A DNA stretch of 64,000 bases. Origin: Vibrio rarus (GTDB taxonomy: Bacteria > Pseudomonadota > Gammaproteobacteria > Enterobacterales > Vibrionaceae). The notes under the pieces were generated by a model. That model ran no database searches and was not told the DNA's origin. It was given only the letters and a program-made list of their open reading frames with translations. This document shows, piece by piece, positions 20,321 to 64,000 of this stretch. Made by a program: the position numbers and the translations under genes. The stretch covers positions 2,108,001-2,172,000 of the forward strand of contig NZ_AP024900.1 of the NCBI RefSeq assembly GCF_024347075.1, written 5' to 3'. Within the stretch, counting starts at the first letter, position 1. The number at the start of each line of letters is the position of its first letter.

Positions 20321-21430
20321 TTATTCGCACACATACTCTACAACGTCTAAACCAAAGCCCGACAAAGAGTGATAACGTTTGTTGCTTGATGACATTAGTT
20401 TCATCTTGCTCACGCCCATATCGGCCAGAATTTGTGAGCCCACACCCACACGGCGTGATGTGCCTTGCTTCTTAGCCATCGTTGGCGCTTCGCCTTTATC
20501 TTGTTGCTCAAAAGCTTTTAGCTTATTGATACGTTGTTCGCTGGTCTCTTCATTACCAAGAACTACAAGAACCCCCCCCTCTTCACCAATACGCTGCATC
20601 GCTTTATCTAAAGACCAGCTACGATCCGAATCACGGTTTGAGTGCAATAGATCGGTAAATGTATCTTGTAGATGCACTCGAACTAAACACGCTTTTTCAG
20701 ACACTTCACCCTTACGCAAAGCATAGTGAACTTGGTTATCAATGGTGTCGCGGTAGGTCACCATATCAAAATCGCCAAATTCAGTTGGCATCTTACATTC
20801 AGCCACACGTTCAATGGTGGTTTCTGTATTGTTGCGATACTCAATTAAGTCCGCAATCGTACCTAGCTTAACGCCGTGTTTTTCTGCAAAAATCTCAAGA
20901 TCTGGACGACGGGCCATTTCCCCATCATCCTTTAGGATCTCAACAATAACAGAAGCAGGCTCACAGCCAGCAAGACGCGCTAAATCACAGCCCGCTTCAG
21001 TGTGCCCTGCGCGAGTAAGTACCCCACCATCTTGCGCCGATAGAGGGAAGATATGACCCGGTTGAACAAGATCAGCTGCTTTAGCATCTGCCGCAACCGC
21101 CGCTTGCACAGTCACAGCACGATCAGCGGCAGAGATACCTGTTGTCACCCCTTCCGCTGCTTCAATAGAAACAGTAAATGCGGTTGAAAATTGCGCATTA
21201 TTATCTTGTACCATAGGTGGCAGACCTAGGCGAGCACAGCGCTCTTGTGTCATGGTTAGACAGATGAGACCGCGCCCATAAGTGGCCATAAAGTTTACCG
21301 CTTCCGGAGTAATATGTTCTGCCGCCATGATTAGGTCGCCTTCGTTTTCACGATCCTCATCATCCATTAGGATAACCATCTTACCTAAGCGAATATCTTC
21401 AATAATTTCTTGTGGTGAGCTGATAGGCAT
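20321..21430 (-). CDS. ribB: RibBX: DHBP synthase fused to a degenerate GTP cyclohydrolase II domain
   Basis: 369 residues. Residues 1-200 are a complete 3,4-dihydroxy-2-butanone-4-phosphate synthase, with the acidic loop [10 protein letters not shown] and the later [15 protein letters not shown]. Residues about 205-369 align in outline with GTP cyclohydrolase II ([30 protein letters not shown]), but the zinc-binding cysteines are missing: the expected Cys-rich stretch reads [14 protein letters not shown]. So this is the hybrid RibBX form known in Shewanella and Vibrio, and GTP cyclohydrolase activity should come from a separate ribA outside the window. Confidence 0.9.
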
Positions 21431-56519: not shown

Positions 56520-57005
56520 ATGGCAAAGAAAAAATCAAAAACCAAAGCGACTAGTAATACTATTGCGCTAAATAAAAAAGCCCGTCACGAGTACTTTATC
56601 GAAGACGAGCTTGAAGCTGGCCTAGAGCTCCAAGGTTGGGAGGTAAAATCTCTACGTCAGGGTAAAGCAAATATCGCCGAGAGCTACGTCTACATTAGAG
56701 ATGGCGAAGCCTTTATCAGTGGTATGAGCATTATACCGTTAAACCAAGCATCGACACATATCGTAGCTAACCCTACTCGTGTGCGTAAGCTTCTGCTTTC
56801 GCGTAAAGAGTTGGATAACCTATTTGGTAGTATTAACCGCGATGGCATGACCCTAACAGCACTATCTCTGTACTGGTCACGTTCGTGGGTAAAAATAAAA
56901 ATCGGTGTCTCTAAGGGTAAAAAATTGCACGATAAACGTACCGATCTTAAAGATAAAGACTGGGCTCGAGATAAAGCGCGAGTTATGAAGAGTAAATTGC
57001 GTTAA
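56520..57005 (+). CDS. smpB: SmpB, tmRNA-binding protein
   Basis: 161 residues. Oligonucleotide-binding barrel with conserved [20 protein letters not shown] and [19 protein letters not shown], and the basic C-terminal tail ([21 protein letters not shown]) that enters the ribosomal mRNA channel. Partner of the tmRNA encoded 66 bp downstream. Confidence 0.96.
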
Positions 57006-57031
57006 TATTGAGCATACAGTTAGCATGGTGC

Positions 57032-57059
57032 TAGACAGTGCACACTTTTCTGGTACTAT
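57032..57059 (+). promoter_or_regulatory. Promoter of ssrA
   Basis: TAGACA at 57032-57037 and TACTAT at 57054-57059, 16 bp apart, 12 bp before the mature 5' end. Confidence 0.55.
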
Positions 57060-57071
57060 GCAAGAACACTT

Positions 57072-57438
57072 GGGGCTGATCTAGGATTCGACGAGAATTC
57101 TGAAGTCTGAGGTGCATGCCGTGGGGCGGTTGGCCACGTAAAAAGCCGCAAAAAAATAGTCGCAAACGACGAAAACTACGCACTAGCAGCTTAATAACCT
57201 GCTGAGAGCCTCTTTGCCCTAGCTTCCGCTTGTAAGACGGGGAATAACAAAGAGTCAAACCCAAACTAGCTAGATCGGATTCTCCCGCCTGAGAGATGAA
57301 GTTCGAAATTTAATTCAGGATAGTCATTTACTAGCGTGTCGGTTCGCAGGTACTTGGTGAATTTAAAGATCGACTAAGCATGTAGTACCAATGATGAATG
57401 ATTTTCGGACGCGGGTTCAACTCCCGCCAGCTCCACCA
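57072..57438 (+). ncRNA. ssrA: tmRNA (ssrA)
   Basis: About 367 nt. The 5' end GGGGCTGAT pairs with the 3' end CAGCTCCACCA to form the tRNA-Ala-like acceptor; GGACGCGGGTTCAACTCCCG is the T-arm. The mRNA-like part encodes the tag ANDENYALAA with stop TAA at 57162-57194. Rescues stalled ribosomes with SmpB. The 3' end of ssrA is a classic attachment site for genomic islands, including VPI-1 of V. cholerae. Confidence 0.97.
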
Positions 57439-57449
57439 AATCAAAGTAA

Positions 57450-57480
57450 AGGGACGTCTCAGGACGTCCCTTTTTCTTAT
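57450..57480 (+). terminator. Terminator of ssrA
   Basis: AGGGACGTC / GACGTCCCT with TCAG loop and TTTTTC. Confidence 0.9.
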
Positions 57481-57626
57481 CTAAGCCCTTGTAAAACAAG
57501 CAACTTCACAGTTTTCTTTTCTCATAGAGTCTCACCGAGTACCACCCCATAACACCTAAAGGATTACCCATTTTATACCAATTACATTAATTTTATGATC
57601 TAATGATTCATGTTTAAGGAGTGCCT

Positions 57627-58103
57627 ATGAATCATGATTTTCAACGTCTAATCAATGCCACATCTAATGCTAGACTTAGAGTTCGTTATCTTGCTATTTC
57701 CCATTTTATTGATGGAAAAAACCGCACTGAGATCGCTCTCTACCTCAAGGTTAGTAGGGTGAGTGTGAATAAATGGGTTAAAGCTTATCTAGATGATGGG
57801 CTTGAAGGACTTCAAGAAAAACCACACTCAGGAAGACCTCACCGCCTAACTGAAGAGCAAAGACTGCAGCTTAAAAATCATGTTACAGACCACGCTATTA
57901 ACGCTAGTGGAGGTCGCCTACAAGCAAAAGACATTGGCCTCTATATAGAAAGTAATTTTGGAATAAAGTACCAACAATCAGGTGTTTATCGGCTACTACA
58001 TGAAATAGGTTTAAGCTGGATTACGACTCGGTCTAAGCATCCGAAACAATCAATTGAAGCCCAAGAAGCTTTTAAAAAAATTCCAAATCGAAACGATCCT
58101 TAA
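57627..58103 (+). CDS. IS630 transposase, N-terminal frame
   Basis: 158 residues from ATG 57627 (AAGGAG upstream). DNA-binding part with helix-turn-helix KNRTEIALYLKVSRVSVNKW and the EKPHSGRPHRL linker. The frame runs into a stop shortly after a run of seven As at 58074-58080, where it would have to change frame to join the catalytic part. Confidence 0.85.
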   Translation: MNHDFQRLINATSNARLRVRYLAISHFIDGKNRTEIALYLKVSRVSVNKWVKAYLDDGLEGLQEKPHSGRPHRLTEEQRLQLKNHVTDHAINASGGRLQAKDIGLYIESNFGIKYQQSGVYRLLHEIGLSWITTRSKHPKQSIEAQEAFKKIPNRNDP

Positions 58104-58650
58104 GATCCCTGGGCATATCCACTTAAAAGAAGTACTTGTTTGGTTTCAAGATGAAGCTAGATTTGGTCAACGCAATACCACAACCAAGATTTGGGCAGAA
58201 AAAGGGACTCGACCTAGAGCCGTTCAGCAGCAGCAATTCGAGTACGCTTATTTGTTTGGAGCCGTTTGTATCAATACGGGCGAAGCTGAAGCTATTGTTT
58301 CACCGCTAAGCAATATGGAGGTAATGACGAAGCACCTTGAATTAATCTCGACTGCGACCCCTACAGGCAAACATTCCGTGGTTATTATGGATCAAGCAAG
58401 CTGGCATCAAACATATTTAGCCAATCATTTTAAAAACATCACGATAATCCATATTCCGCCATACTCACCAGAATTAAACCCGATAGAGCAAGTTTGGCAA
58501 TGGCTTCGACAGTACAAGCTAGCGAATAGGTGTTTTGAAAACTATAACGATATAGTGAACTCAGTATGTAGCGCTTGGAATAGTTTTTGTGAAGATAAAC
58601 GCAGGGTCCAATCTCTCTGTTTTAGAGATTGGACTCAATTGATAAATTAA
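58054..58650 (+). CDS. IS630 transposase, C-terminal DDE frame
   Basis: 198 residues in the +1 frame relative to the first part. DDE residues: Asp in VWFQDEARFGQ, Asp in VVIMDQASWHQT, Glu in PELNPIEQVWQWL. The first codons upstream of the A run are probably not translated on their own. The join can arise by slippage at the A7 tract or the element may be broken by an indel. Confidence 0.8.
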   Translation: MKPKKLLKKFQIETILKIPGHIHLKEVLVWFQDEARFGQRNTTTKIWAEKGTRPRAVQQQQFEYAYLFGAVCINTGEAEAIVSPLSNMEVMTKHLELISTATPTGKHSVVIMDQASWHQTYLANHFKNITIIHIPPYSPELNPIEQVWQWLRQYKLANRCFENYNDIVNSVCSAWNSFCEDKRRVQSLCFRDWTQLIN

Positions 58651-58753
58651 TTAATGGAATTGGTATTATTACCCAAAAATTAAATCTATACTGATTTTAA
58701 AGTTTGGGTAACCTTTGTGCTGTTACCTCCCCATAAATAGAAGGTGCGGCCGA

Positions 58754-58876
58754 ATGGCGATGAGAAAAGACACATACTACAAAAACCTCTCCCTAACTAA
58801 TGAACAGTCAGAGCTAGTCATATGCGATGGCGATAATCTGTATTTTCGTAGTGGATTAACAGATTTGGCCACATAG
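58754..58876 (+). pseudogene. Possible integrase N-terminal remnant
   Basis: 40 codons from ATG 58754 to a TAG at 58874-58876. ELVICDGDNLYFRSG recalls the start of the arm-binding domain of P4-type tyrosine integrases (DGxGLYLRV). After the TAG the frame stays open (LEFGQKEKYVRR) into the array, as if TGG had mutated to TAG. Such an integrase is expected beside a tmRNA attachment site. Weak evidence; it may be chance. Confidence 0.3.
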
Positions 58877-58911
58877 CTAGAGTTTGGCCAGAAAGAAAAG
58901 TATGTCAGACG

Positions 58912-59955
58912 CTGTCATTGCTACGTAATTTTGATAAGGTATTGAAGCGCTGCCATAGCATGGCGTGGTCTAGTGACTTGGCCGTTTCATTGCTACGTGA
59001 TTTTGATAAGGTATTGAAGCTCTTTGGGAACGTCTGCGGCGTAATGCTCTCTTCTGGTTTCATTGCTACGTGATTTTGATAAGGTATTGAAGCCTGAAAG
59101 CGCGCGGATACATCGTTAATGCCGTTAAGTTTCATTGCTACGTGATTTTGATAAGGTATTGAAGCAAACTTGAATCCGACAACATGACTCGTGCGCTAGG
59201 GTTTCATTGCTACGTGATTTTGATAAGGTATTGAAGCTTAGGTGCTGACCTCCCACGCTGTCGGACACGTAGTTTCATTGCTACGTGATTTTGATAAGGT
59301 ATTGAAGCATATTCTCGTGAGTTATAGTGATTGCATAGAACGTTTCATTGCTACGTGATTTTGATAAGGTATTGAAGCCCCAGCGGCATGTAACTTACCT
59401 TTACCCTGCAAGTTTCATTGCTACGTGATTTTGATAAGGTATTGAAGCAAAAAAGGCAATAGTTATCATTAGACGGTTCTTGCAGTTTCATTGCTACGTG
59501 ATTTTGATAAGGTATTGAAGCAGAGAAAAGTCTCGTTTTACGCTCTGCCTTTCGGCGGTTTCATTGCTACGTGATTTTGATAAGGTATTGAAGCAAGCTA
59601 GAGCAACGGCAAGCAAAACAGCACCAAAGTTTCATTGCTACGTGATTTTGATAAGGTATTGAAGCTAAACCAAAAACAGTAATAACACTAGGAAACGTCA
59701 GTTTCATTGCTACGTGATTTTGATAAGGTATTGAAGCTGCCAACGACCATCTAACCATTCATCGTATTCACCGTTTCATTGCTACGTGATTTTGATAAGG
59801 TATTGAAGCACAATAGATCAATGGTGGCTGTCTGTGTCTCGCTGTGGTTTCATTGCTACGTGATTTTGATAAGGTATTGAAGCCTAAGAACAAAAATTCA
59901 TGGCTTGAGGATGCTTGAGTTTCATTGCTACGTGATTTTGATAAGGTATTGAAGC
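58912..59955 (+). CRISPR. CRISPR array, 15 repeats and 14 spacers (type II-B)
   Basis: Repeat length 37, starting GTTTCATTGCTACGTG and ending GATAAGGTATTGAAGC. Repeats start at 58912, 58984, 59057, 59129, 59201, 59272, 59342, 59412, 59485, 59558, 59629, 59701, 59773, 59847 and 59919. Spacers are 33-37 nt. Fourteen repeats are identical as far as I can see; the first (58912) has three changes (positions 1, 3, 16). The strand is given as + because the candidate tracrRNA would pair with RNA read in this direction. Apparent proteins read across the repeats are artefacts. Confidence 0.97.
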
Positions 59956-60070
59956 CTACTACAGAAACCCCCATGGTAACTACTGTGGGGCTCTATCCTG
60001 GTAATCATTTTTTCGAAAACAAACCTGTGAGCAAAATCACTGTCTTTTTTTCGAAAAAGGATTATTGTGA
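59956..60070 (+). promoter_or_regulatory. Cas-proximal CRISPR flank (probable leader / tracrRNA promoter region)
   Basis: A/T-rich segment after the last repeat. It has a hairpin CCCCA / TGGGG (59969-59990), two copies of the palindrome TTTTCGAAAA (within 60008-60019 and 60046-60057), with GTGA...TCAC between them, and a possible -10 TATTGT at about 60063-60068, just before the anti-repeat. Confidence 0.5.
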
Positions 60071-60160
60071 ACTCATCAAAATTACGATGCAATGAAATCA
60101 TCTAAAATCAAGATTGATTACCCCTCTGCGCTAGCATGGGTGACTTTATTCTCTGTCATT
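60070..60160 (+). ncRNA. Candidate tracrRNA
   Basis: 60075-60097 is an anti-repeat: its complement matches the crRNA repeat over TTTCATTGC, CGT and ATTTTGAT, interrupted by a two-base mismatch (TA/AT) and one G-U pair. The sequence after it (ATCATCTAAAA, then a CCTCTG hairpin-like segment) resembles the F. novicida tracrRNA as I remember it. It is on the + strand, between the array and cas4, and its 3' end runs antisense over the last codons of cas4. Exact ends are estimated. Confidence 0.7.
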
Positions 60161-60718
60161 ACAGAAATTTATGTATTCACACTGCCCACATTGAGCCTGT
60201 GATGCACTGCTGTCTGGCATTATCTGCGTTTTTTGCATTAATTCAATATGCTTAATTGCATTTGATAAGGTTATTTTTAGCTCCTCTTTTATCTCTACTC
60301 TATGAACTTTTCCCTTTAATTCATAAGAAATAAAGCCACTTTTAAGACCAATATCATATTGTTCTTCAATCATCACCGCATAAGCAACCATTTGTAATAT
60401 CTGTCCACGAGTGGGTTTGGTGCAAGTTAGTTTAAATTCAATAACCAGCGCCTCTTCTGGTAAAAAAATCACCGCATCCGCCAAGCCGTGAATCCCCCAC
60501 TTAACGGACCTTAGCTTTACATCAAACTCGATCTTAGCACTATTAAGATCATACCTTTTCAAAGTTCGTGACTGACTTAGTTGCTGCTCACGCACATGAT
60601 AGTCAATCCCTTGTTTAACCCAAAGAGGGCTTGGTACTTTGAGCCCAAGAATGTATTGAAAATAGACAATTCGAGGGCAAAAGCAGTACTGACGAAATAA
60701 ACTGGAGGGGATACTCAT
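60146..60718 (-). CDS. cas4: Cas4, RecB-like CRISPR adaptation nuclease
   Basis: 190 residues. Iron-sulfur cysteines: Cys14 in CFCPRIVYF and Cys177, 180, 186 in CGQCEYINFC. Nuclease motif residues: Asp81 in GLADAVIFL, Glu94 and Lys96 in VIEFKLT, and the QxxxY segment QILQMVAYAV. Cas4 trims pre-spacers and helps choose PAM-linked ends; its presence with Cas9 is diagnostic of type II-B. Start overlaps the cas2 stop (ATGA). Confidence 0.93.
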   Translation of the reverse strand: MSIPSSLFRQYCFCPRIVYFQYILGLKVPSPLWVKQGIDYHVREQQLSQSRTLKRYDLNSAKIEFDVKLRSVKWGIHGLADAVIFLPEEALVIEFKLTCTKPTRGQILQMVAYAVMIEEQYDIGLKSGFISYELKGKVHRVEIKEELKITLSNAIKHIELMQKTQIMPDSSASQAQCGQCEYINFCNDRE

Positions 60719-61014
60719 AATACCTCGAAACTGGTGGGCGGTTGAAAATCGTTCTCTTGATACCCTAATCCATACTTGCCAATCACACTGCCTAGCTTTG
60801 CTCTGACCAAAAAGGCTTTATCACTCTCTTTATCAAGTTTTTTGAACAAACGGTACACCGCTCTCTCTTCCGCTTTATTGAGAAACCCCCAAAATACCGA
60901 CTTTTGTATTGGCTCTAATCCAACGTCTTTAAGTTGTTCAAATAGCTTCTTACGTTGCTTATTATTTTCAACGTCATAGGCGACTAATACTTCATACCTA
61001 AGCGATTTACTCAT
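60715..61014 (-). CDS. cas2: Cas2, CRISPR adaptation endoribonuclease-fold protein
   Basis: 99 residues from ATG 61014 with GAGG upstream; a GTG at 61035 would overlap cas1 and is a less likely start. Ferredoxin-like fold with the N-terminal acidic residue in EVLVAYDVENNKQR. Forms the Cas1-Cas2 integrase complex that inserts spacers. Confidence 0.92.
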   Translation of the reverse strand: MSKSLRYEVLVAYDVENNKQRKKLFEQLKDVGLEPIQKSVFWGFLNKAEERAVYRLFKKLDKESDKAFLVRAKLGSVIGKYGLGYQENDFQPPTSFEVL

Positions 61015-61031
61015 CACTACCTCAACAGAGA

Positions 61032-62024
61032 TCACCAGCGGAAAATATAGGGTTTGTATTTTTTTTCACCATAGAAAGCACCAGACAGGCGATAGATCTG
61101 ACGCTGTAAAATGGTTTCAAGTTTGAGCTTTTTCCCTTGATAAGGGTAATGCGTAGCAAAAGTTTTATGGATAGAAGCAATCAACTGTTTCTTGATTTTC
61201 GGCGTCAGTCCACCTGACTTTTGCAACTTATCGGCTATCTTGATCACATTTCTATCGACAACCCACGCTCGGTACACTTCCATAATATCTAGTACCAATG
61301 AAGGCTTCCCGGCCCTTTGTGTATGCAATACACCTTGATATATTTCTAAGCCAGAGTTAATCAAACAGTGCCAAACATAAGAGCTTAAAATGTGATAACC
61401 ATAGTTTAAAGCAGAGTTAATGGGATCGGTTGCACCTCTACCCATTCGACCGCTAAAGCTATCAGGGAAAAGGTTGGCCTCGTATAATGTTTTCCAATAC
61501 ATAGCCGCACCACTGCCTTCGTAACCAAGCAATACTTCACGCCAGTCATCATACTTTTCAATCTTAATCTTTTGCACTTTGGCGATATGGGTTTTGAGGT
61601 TCGACGCTGCTAATTGACAGGCATGAGACTGATTATGTTTCTTTTTGTACTTGGCAAAGTAGTTAAGGATCACTCGTTGGTTTTTGAGCTTCCCAACCAC
61701 CAAGTTTTGAGCTAATTTTTTCGCTTCATCACTCCCTAAAAACTTAAACTGCCGCTCTCGTACTTTACTTACCGCATGGAGCTGCCCACCACTAACGCAA
61801 GCCAGTGTGTGTGAGAAAGGATCAAGTACAAAGAGCTTAATCCCCCTCATGGCGCACTGAACGATAACATTACTTGATAAGCTAACACCCTTTTTAGTGA
61901 TCGTAACGGTCTTGATTCGACTTAATGGATACTCAGCAACAAGCACCCCATCCTCTTTAATAGTTAGGCGTTCACTGGTTACACCAACAAATTGACCGTA
62001 ATCACAAACCGTTATGTGTTTCAT
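61032..62024 (-). CDS. cas1: Cas1, CRISPR integrase
   Basis: 330 residues. Metal-binding residues visible: Glu169 in YEGSGAAMYW, His234 in GVLHTQRAGKP and Asp246 in SLVLDIMEVYRAW. N-terminal beta domain and C-terminal helical domain have normal length. Overlaps cas9 by 4 bp (ATGA), so cas9-cas1-cas2-cas4 is one operon. Confidence 0.96.
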   Translation of the reverse strand: MKHITVCDYGQFVGVTSERLTIKEDGVLVAEYPLSRIKTVTITKKGVSLSSNVIVQCAMRGIKLFVLDPFSHTLACVSGGQLHAVSKVRERQFKFLGSDEAKKLAQNLVVGKLKNQRVILNYFAKYKKKHNQSHACQLAASNLKTHIAKVQKIKIEKYDDWREVLLGYEGSGAAMYWKTLYEANLFPDSFSGRMGRGATDPINSALNYGYHILSSYVWHCLINSGLEIYQGVLHTQRAGKPSLVLDIMEVYRAWVVDRNVIKIADKLQKSGGLTPKIKKQLIASIHKTFATHYPYQGKKLKLETILQRQIYRLSGAFYGEKKYKPYIFRW

Positions 62025-64000
62025 CGTACTACTGGTGTACCATTTTGGTAGGCTTGTTTCATAACCTTGTTCGAGCTTTCTACAATGTACTCCAACGTAA
62101 TGATCTCACCCAAGTTAACAATAAATAGATTTGAGCGTGGCTTTCCCAGCAATTCGCCAAACTTATCCAACCACTCTCTTGGCTTCGCTAGCTTCAATTC
62201 TGCTGATAATTTACTCCAATGATCTAACCCTTCAGTATCTTGCAACATTGGGACTACTAACTCATTGAATTCTTGATAACCAATATCAACAGCAACTCTG
62301 AAGCGTGATTTAGAATTAGTAGACAAATAGACCGACTTACATACATTCTCTCGAATCCCTTCTAGGTCTATTTCGCGCCATGCATTAAATGGCTCAAGCA
62401 GTTCACGTTGTGCATATCGATTACCTACTGGCGTCAATTTATTGCTTTGCTCTATCTGTCTAATAGGAACTGAACCGTCTTCAGAAAAGTTAATCACTCC
62501 ATTATCATGCGAAAAACCGCTTGCGCCTAAGCCTTCAACTGCAAACAATTGCCAAATATCCGTTCCATCAGCGTTTTTACGGCGGGCTCTATACGCACCA
62601 GAGGCTTTACTAATGCGTGGTAAAGACCACTGCTTTCTTATCCCTTTATGTGAGCGAGTATTTAACTTCGTTTGAGGGAACACTTCTTGAATCAATGCAT
62701 TAAATTCAACATCATCAAAGGGTTGCTTTGAGCCTTGATTGGTTTGAATAAATGTCATTTGAGATAATTTTTGCCAGTGTGCCATCCCTGGATAGTGCAA
62801 CGATTTTTTTGAAACTTTCTTACTCTTACTATTCAAATATGATGATTTAGGCTCAAACTTAATCGTAAAGTGCTTCGCATTAGTTAGATCGACAGCTTTT
62901 GCATACATCTTCTTCATATCATCGTAAATTGCAGTACGAAGATTGGTCTTTTGAGTGGTGTAGTACAGTGCTCCTAGCAAGTCAGCGGCCAATAGTTCAC
63001 TCTCTGAGCATGACTGTTTTGCCACTTTTTCCAACAACTCAAAAGCACAACTTTTGTTTACGCTAAACGCTTTAAACCCCTTACCAACTGTTTGTTGGAT
63101 TTGGTTTAAATCCTTCTTAGCCTTATTCAAATATGGGAACAATGCTTGCCACCAAATCTGAGGGGCTTCAGCATCAAGCAACCATGACACATTATTGGTA
63201 TTAAAGCCGATACCTAACTTATCTTGCATCACGATGAGTGGCATAAAGTGTTCCGAATACAAACCATCTTTAAACAATTGTTTACTGCTAATTGAATCCT
63301 TTTCATACTTCAATTTCGACTCGATGCGTACTACTTTTGCGTTATCAGGGATAAGTTTTTTAAGCCAATCACTTCCCTCTAAACCGGCCGTTTGTAAAAT
63401 ATCTCTTGTATGTGGTTGCTTCAACGCCTGTGCCATGACCATTGCTGCATCTATCATATGGCTAGCAACGGGTTGTAGCTTTTTCTTTTCGTACTCTGGA
63501 TGCGCTGTACTTAATAGGTCACGCTCTTGGGATGCCAAATCAGCTTGAATATAAGCAACATCAAAGCTGATTTGATTCACATTATACAACTGCTTGATCT
63601 TTTGCATGATCAATTTTGCTAAGAAAGCCTGCGTGCCATTTACCCTAGTCTTGTTTGACTGATGCAAGAGTCGCATTAATTCTGTACGTAATGATTCAAC
63701 AAATAAGCCATGACGAATTGAACGTTGAATTTCTGGCTCTAGTTTATCAAAACCAATGATATCTTGACCAAGCACTCCTTGGCAGTTTGCAATGATTATC
63801 TCTTCAATCGCTTGCCTGTCATGATGACCAAACTGCTTATGGAGATAGCTATCATGCAAGTCTGACAAAGAGTAGTAACTGCGATCTTTCAAACTATTGC
63901 CTTGCGTTGAGCAGTAAATTAGGTTTGCTTCATGATTGAACACTCCTTTATTTCTCCCACGTGATTCAGCTCTTGAGATGATATGGTCTATCTCACCACC
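62021..64000 (-). CDS. cas9: Cas9, type II-B (Csx12-like), partial (C-terminal about 659 residues)
   Basis: The frame is open to the right edge of the window. The visible part begins with GGEIDHIISRAESRGRNKG, the HNH nuclease site; the catalytic His is residue 6 of the fragment and the HNH Asn is in VFNHEANLIY. RuvC-III residues His181 and Asp184 lie in ASHMIDAAMVMA. About 653 residues follow the HNH His, near the 660 in F. novicida Cas9, so the complete protein is probably around 1,600 residues. The C-terminal part should hold the PAM-interacting domain. No frameshift or stop is seen in this half. With guide RNAs it would cleave invading DNA. Confidence 0.93.
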   Translation of the reverse strand, partial: GGEIDHIISRAESRGRNKGVFNHEANLIYCSTQGNSLKDRSYYSLSDLHDSYLHKQFGHHDRQAIEEIIIANCQGVLGQDIIGFDKLEPEIQRSIRHGLFVESLRTELMRLLHQSNKTRVNGTQAFLAKLIMQKIKQLYNVNQISFDVAYIQADLASQERDLLSTAHPEYEKKKLQPVASHMIDAAMVMAQALKQPHTRDILQTAGLEGSDWLKKLIPDNAKVVRIESKLKYEKDSISSKQLFKDGLYSEHFMPLIVMQDKLGIGFNTNNVSWLLDAEAPQIWWQALFPYLNKAKKDLNQIQQTVGKGFKAFSVNKSCAFELLEKVAKQSCSESELLAADLLGALYYTTQKTNLRTAIYDDMKKMYAKAVDLTNAKHFTIKFEPKSSYLNSKSKKVSKKSLHYPGMAHWQKLSQMTFIQTNQGSKQPFDDVEFNALIQEVFPQTKLNTRSHKGIRKQWSLPRISKASGAYRARRKNADGTDIWQLFAVEGLGASGFSHDNGVINFSEDGSVPIRQIEQSNKLTPVGNRYAQRELLEPFNAWREIDLEGIRENVCKSVYLSTNSKSRFRVAVDIGYQEFNELVVPMLQDTEGLDHWSKLSAELKLAKPREWLDKFGELLGKPRSNLFIVNLGEIITLEYIVESSNKVMKQAYQNGTPVVR

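Follow-up and report, generated by a model that had tools for sequence, protein, structure and literature searches.

Subtype II-B CRISPR-Cas systems of the Vibrionaceae were described by McDonald et al. (2019, PMC6360697) in Vibrio natriegens, Vibrio sagamiensis and three Salinivibrio species, where they lie on islands at tRNA loci. The present analysis concerns a locus of this subtype in a 64,000-nt stretch of the Vibrio rarus chromosome, hereafter the window (G000:C1:2108001-2172000, where G000 denotes this genome, of 3.88 Mb in three contigs). The locus shares with the published systems a Vibrionaceae host, a cas9-cas1-cas2-cas4 cluster, a 37-bp repeat and an association with integrase islands, and differs from them in lying at ssrA, the gene for tmRNA, instead of a tRNA gene, and in retaining just a stump of the integrase. 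It is a further example of the kind published in 2019 on Vibrio and Salinivibrio islands, rare and found in a new place; among the open-licence titles listed for II-B and Vibrio, or for Cas9 with tmRNA, islands and integrases, none dealt with a II-B system at ssrA. The initial annotation of this DNA had considered such a system unusual for Vibrio; it is less surprising than that, since II-B systems on Vibrio islands at tRNA sites were already in print (PMC6360697).

With high confidence, the locus is interpreted as a complete-looking II-B CRISPR-Cas9 immune system located in the ssrA hot spot beside the stump of an ssrA-site integrase, with a likely history of island occupation followed by deletion. 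It enlarges a rare subtype by a marine Vibrio Cas9 about 1400 aa long, together with its matching repeat and anti-repeat.

Gene content and subtype of the locus

The plus strand carries, in this order, ssrA, an IS630 element, the integrase stump, the CRISPR array and an anti-repeat, which are followed on the minus strand by cas4-cas2-cas1-cas9. The cas genes form one operon in which neighbours overlap by 4 nt each: cas4 (60146-60718), cas2 (60715-61035), cas1 (61032-62024) and cas9 (62021-64000 within the window), with PADLOC best models Cas4_II, Cas2_II, Cas1_II and Cas9b, respectively. Their G+C content (39.6-40.3%) is slightly below that of the window (43.4%). The inventory of ssrA, IS630, a 15-repeat array and overlapping cas genes given in the initial annotation is confirmed by ARAGORN, Rfam, NCBIfam, PADLOC and the 4-nt overlaps.

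The cas9 gene continues beyond the right end of the window and was completed from the same genome; the rightward extension proposed earlier located the Cas9 N-terminus, and in window numbering the gene spans 62021-66238. Translation could start at TTG at 66238, giving 1405 codons, or at ATG three codons downstream, giving 1402; residues are numbered here according to the 1402-aa form (P0001). The next gene read upstream of cas9 is on the opposite strand and has no Pfam match.

The protein matches the II-B Cas9/Csx12 family TIGR03031 with 474.5 bits (cut-off 399.4) and PF21069 Csx12 with 426.7 bits (cut-off 27). The part encoded within the window contains the HNH motif, D748-H749-I750, and the RuvC-III pair, H924/D927, previously noted as intact; all of these residues, and E685 as well, are invariant across the 35 II-B rows of an alignment of this family (A1). 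D10, in the part outside the window, is kept in at least 90% of these rows. D10, E685, H749, H924 and D927 are the catalytic residues. The HNH and RuvC-III motifs also align with those of solved Cas9 chains, which are distant in sequence. Chains 8umf and 9ko9 match over nearly the full length (E about 1e-173); 5b2o, the Francisella novicida Cas9, is more than 200 residues longer and matches in the middle only (E 1e-55).

In a Cas9 tree of 39 rows, computed in quick mode, 31 II-B rows including the V. rarus protein are split with a support of 100 from eight Csn1-family outgroup rows, in which II-A and II-C are taken together. The rows comprise 17 of the 37 loci found with alignment A1, 12 of the 120 listed homologues, L024 (G042), L089 (G243) and 8 of 12 Csn1-family loci. 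L062 (wrong frame) and L084 (663 aa, excluded for its length) were left out, and the Cas9 proteins of V. natriegens and V. sagamiensis are likewise absent. The nearest neighbours of the V. rarus protein are P0002 and V. splendidus, followed by P0005, P0006 and that of Vibrio sp. JC009, then by P0008 and P0009, and then by P0010. Ten inner forks have support below 80, and the program flags a possible grouping of long branches with one another. The closest named relatives among the 120 listed homologues are those of V. splendidus (86%, partial) and Vibrio sp. JC009 (58%). Used as a single-protein query in genome contigs, the V. rarus Cas9 gave no confirmed locus, as against 37 with A1, and no member of its lineage was found in plasmids, phages or viral contigs.

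Between the array and cas4 there is no other frame of at least 80 aa on the cas strand that could represent the II-A gene csn2, csn2 itself not having been searched for. Since the family cut-off, the Cas9 tree, the presence of cas4, the gene order and the orientation of the array agree, the locus belongs to subtype II-B, as the initial annotation had stated.

CRISPR array, guide RNAs and spacer targets

The array, detected by repeat search, occupies positions 58912-59955 and consists of 15 repeats of 37 nt separated by 14 spacers of 33-37 nt. Fourteen repeats are identical, while the first, at 58912, is degenerate. Type II repeats usually start with GTTT, and this feature together with the anti-repeat pairing places the crRNA sense of the repeat on the plus strand, against the minus-strand cas genes. 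The same opposition, judged by repeat sense, was found in all four Vibrionaceae loci read (G000, G072, G042 and G243). It agrees with PMC3936727, according to which array and cas genes of II-B systems are transcribed in opposite directions; the four loci do not support the expectation, given in PMC6737040, that array and cas genes of II-B systems run in the same direction.

The anti-repeat, at positions 60072-60100 of the plus strand between the array and cas4, pairs with the repeat at -27.4 kcal/mol. It would belong to a tracrRNA at 60072-60155, whose 3' part is kept in Vibrio sp. JC009 (G072) and whose 3' end is uncertain. The Cas9 of the latter strain (P0007) is 58-59% identical to that of V. 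rarus, and its locus has the same gene order, array orientation and repeat/anti-repeat design. Its repeat is different and matches a different anti-repeat at -31.1 kcal/mol (best of 300 shuffled repeats, -26.9 kcal/mol), and the swapped pairs between the two strains are weaker, at -20.8 and -15.4 kcal/mol. The anti-repeat thus co-varies with the repeat between the two strains, and the sequence beyond it, between the array and cas4, is conserved. A repeat fragment at the left end of the JC009 array and the degenerate repeat at the left end of the V. rarus array point to the cas4 side as the probable entry point of new spacers. Inverted TTTTTCGAAAA motifs lie between the array and the putative tracrRNA, at 60009-60058, with similar motifs in JC009, and possibly represent a leader or regulator site.

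In operation, the array and tracrRNA would be transcribed on the plus strand, opposite to the cas operon. The anti-repeat of the tracrRNA would pair with each repeat and the duplex would be cut by host RNase III; Cas9 guided by the resulting dual RNA would cut DNA next to a short G-rich protospacer-adjacent motif (PAM), and Cas1, Cas2 and Cas4 would add spacers.

Several results weigh against a functional immune system of this design. The best of 300 shuffled repeats paired with the V. rarus tracrRNA region at -27.2 kcal/mol, close to the real value, although none was better. The region folds barely better than shuffled sequences (z -1.5) and, unlike in JC009, is followed by no clear terminator; promoter-like sites in 58640-60300 are no more frequent than expected by chance (three found, 4.9 expected). 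Finally, even a weak phage match was obtained for just one of the 14 spacers. For this spacer (59166-59200), 30 of 35 bases agree with a site in each of two Vibrio phages, in genes annotated as a tape measure protein and a TMhelix protein, respectively; with a BLAST E value of 0.09 in each case, the match is no more than suggestive. On its 3' side, one phage site is flanked by TGG and the other by CGC; published PAMs are NGG for Vibrionaceae II-B systems (PMC6360697) and NG for F. novicida (PMC3936727).

The remaining target searches gave no spacer match. None of the 26 JC009 spacers matched a phage. In plasmids and the 227 Vibrio genomes there was no spacer match, the matches obtained being to the repeat or, with JC009, from array to array. 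No self-target was seen in the search of the 227 genomes, in which the top two candidates per genome were scored. Exact patterns of a piece of spacer 4 and of a piece of spacer 14 with a following NGG were absent from the viral contigs.

Two alternatives to a working immune locus may be considered at this point. The locus could be decaying and inactive, given that an IS630 element and a broken integrase adjoin it, that the trailer repeat is degenerate and that no promoter or terminator of its own stands out. This is unlikely, as the four cas frames are whole, the catalytic residues have been retained and all but one of the 15 repeats are identical. It is less likely still that the locus has left immunity and now regulates host genes by means of a small accessory RNA. 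Such an RNA (scaRNA) is described for the II-B system of F. novicida in PMC6737040; the subtype is the same, and the conserved sequence beyond the anti-repeat in V. rarus and JC009 could be read in this way. Against it, no second anti-repeat was present among the 25 longest of 60 inverted pairs in the 7-kb stretch, and the genes for adaptation remain intact, as do 14 diverse spacers.

The ssrA site and the history of the locus

The ssrA gene (57072-57438, plus strand; ARAGORN, and Rfam tmRNA with 252.9 bits) represents the chromosomal flank of the locus. It is followed by the IS630 element (about 57575-58666, plus strand), bounded by imperfect terminal inverted repeats of 35 nt (77%). The transposase is encoded by two overlapping frames, 57621-58103 and 58054-58650, each above the NCBIfam cut-off for IS630 and meeting near a run of seven A, which would fit programmed frameshifting. 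A near-mode search found no copy of the element in plasmids.

Judged by the ssrA region, G127 is the closest relative (89%); there, ssrA leads into an integrase gene without an IS630 element. The window matches this genome at 57000-57576 (97.4%) and again at 58666-58848 (98.9%), where the match ends inside the integrase gene. The V. rarus chromosome therefore carries IS630 and a 95-bp stump of about 31 codons from the 5' end of a tyrosine integrase gene (58754-58848, plus strand), identified by its identity to G127. The counterpart of 58666-58848 in G127 opens a gene with Pfam integrase domains; the stump alone has no Pfam match. The first repeat of the array starts 63 bp after the stump.

In 8 of the 14 relatives read (G127, G220, G143, G106, G101, G072, G059 and G015), the gene immediately 3' of ssrA is an integrase gene with Pfam support, and in the other six (G157, G180, G170, G065, G082 and G125) it is not. 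The catalytic domain of the G143 integrase is just below the cut-off, and that of G127 has no catalytic-domain match and runs into a transposase-like gene. A second copy of the ssrA end is perfect over 23 nt in G220, 15 kb further on, and 83% identical in G180. On this comparison ssrA was described correctly as an island hot spot, here within its own clade. Among the frames matched, none of the 14 relatives has cas genes at ssrA, so the same cas genes are not a common property of relatives at this place.

The likeliest course of events would begin with an integrase-bearing island occupying the ssrA site. A deletion would then have left the 5' end of the integrase gene fused to the distal end of the array, and a copy of IS630 would have landed between ssrA and the stump. 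The locus would illustrate in concrete terms how an island decays at ssrA.

The proposal of the initial annotation that the II-B locus reached ssrA on a mobile island has evidence on both sides. In its favour are the stump beside the array and the presence of II-B Cas9 in just 3 of the 227 Vibrio species genomes; against it, the integrase is dead, and the boundary sought on the right was bracketed at 66238-67403, an unclear edge with no attR found. The search for attR, a second copy of the ssrA 3' end, covered 25 kb to the left and 55 kb to the right of ssrA at the mismatch limits used, and an 81-base query had one match in the whole genome; both results count against arrival on an island. A further point against it comes from G157, in which the interval is filled by other genes; therefore the change at ssrA was a replacement, not a clean insertion.

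On the right flank, homology resumes at 67403 in comparison with G157 and G106, and at 67462 with G065. The point of resumption is an alginate lyase gene according to Pfam, by which a reading by eye of the gene at 67389 as a porin was ruled out. Synteny on this flank is variable, the best match of the lyase in G101 being on another contig. A 133-aa frame at 66552-66953 (L009:14552-14953), between cas9 and the lyase gene, is DoxX-like by eye with no Pfam match; DNA similar to it (70-71%) is present elsewhere in G127 and G065.

Alternatively, the II-B locus could have been inserted later into an already degraded ssrA island by illegitimate or insertion sequence-mediated recombination, the integrase stump being a mere neighbour. 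The near-identical integrase at ssrA in G127, a genome without II-B Cas9, fits this explanation, as do the failure to find attR and the related locus of JC009, which is flanked by flagellin genes and has neither a tRNA nor a tmRNA gene within the 30 kb read. On the other hand, the array begins 63 bp past the stump, where relatives carry island cargo, and the published II-B loci of Vibrionaceae are located on islands with an integrase (PMC6360697). Later insertion is regarded as possible but less likely, and arrival with the integrase-bearing island is preferred.

Related loci in Vibrionaceae and a solitary repeat on a plasmid

Matches to TIGR03031 were found in 6 of 227 Vibrio genomes, with G000 and G072 above the cut-off. 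The weak Csx12 matches in G122, G166 and G075 were rejected as II-B Cas9, the proteins resembling chemotaxis receptors by eye, so that II-B is present in three of the 227 genomes (G000, G072 and G042). A draw of 197 genomes of the family contained II-B Cas9 in G000 and G243 only.

The locus of Vibrio sp. JC009 (L022:5928-14113), already named II-B by NCBI, differs from that of V. rarus in its flagellin-gene site and in its 27 repeats of another sequence. In G042 (L024, G042:C70), a transposase gene interrupts cas9, and an insertion containing transposase-like genes divides the array. The G243 locus (L138), from another genus of the family, which may be Salinivibrio, has tRNA-Met on one side and an integrase on the other, as described for Salinivibrio (PMC6360697). 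In the tree, the Cas9 proteins of G042 and G243 group in a II-B lineage far removed from that of V. rarus, and the names V. natriegens and V. sagamiensis are absent among the 120 listed homologues of the latter. From these two distant lineages, the Vibrionaceae probably took up II-B systems at least twice, and the locations suggest uptake at several sites: ssrA, a flagellin cluster and the vicinity of tRNA-Met. The recognition of two distant lineages at different sites is a small addition to the published picture, as are the solitary copies of the repeat core described below.

Outside V. rarus, the 35-nt core of the repeat was found exactly in 2 of the 227 Vibrio genomes, as a single copy in each: on the conjugative plasmid p1 of V. 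echinoideorum (G163; NZ_AP025485.1, L048:12001-12049) and at G011:C2:1993098-1993132. It had no exact match among 2.9 million viral contigs. Over the 35 nt searched both copies have the GTAATTTT form, as in the V. rarus trailer repeat; in pairing with the V. rarus tracrRNA, this form lacks the G-U wobble seen with the other 14 repeats. Plasmid p1 has one repeat copy in 24 kb, with no cas gene annotated there, and neither G163 nor G011 has a match to the II-B Cas9 model.

Both copies precede the same two-gene module, consisting of a 61-residue frame and a protein weakly similar to DUF6338 (below the cut-off), which was found in these two of the 227 genomes; they consequently represent a single event. 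Four Vibrio phage records match the second gene of the module. One of these phages, which is tailless, was read and has both module genes, with no repeat core in 3.6 kb.

The solitary repeat is possibly a decoy of the Racr type, an array remnant or a chance transfer. Racr (PMC10651486) is likewise a solitary CRISPR repeat on a mobile element without cas9; the p1 repeat differs in having no promoter-like site upstream, the sole one found lying downstream. The terms II-B, Vibrio and tracrRNA do not occur in the main text of that paper. As an RNA-based decoy of II-B Cas9, the p1 repeat would tie up tracrRNA and Cas9 once the plasmid had entered a Vibrio that has such a system. This role is quite improbable, given the lack of an upstream promoter-like site, the nearly equal computed pairing energies of the two repeat forms (-27.3 and -27.4 kcal/mol) and the derivation of both copies from one event. 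If the plasmid repeat did act on such a system, it would be an RNA countering Cas9, which could be tested in laboratory strains.

The p1 repeat is preceded by a conserved stretch of about 110 nt, which was considered as the shared promoter of a repeat cassette and rejected. This stretch recurs in other Vibrio plasmids, where none of nine such loci read has the repeat core at up to six mismatches, and it is therefore a dispersed element. The element (L048:11882-12000) has inverted ends; a search with its region gave matches in 32 plasmid records, p1 among them (31 from Vibrio and one from Photobacterium), most of them at the element itself, and in one Vibrio phage.

Elsewhere in the window, Rfam identified a Vibrio RNA AS9 at positions 21230-21333 of the plus strand, with 56.2 bits against a gathering score of 50.

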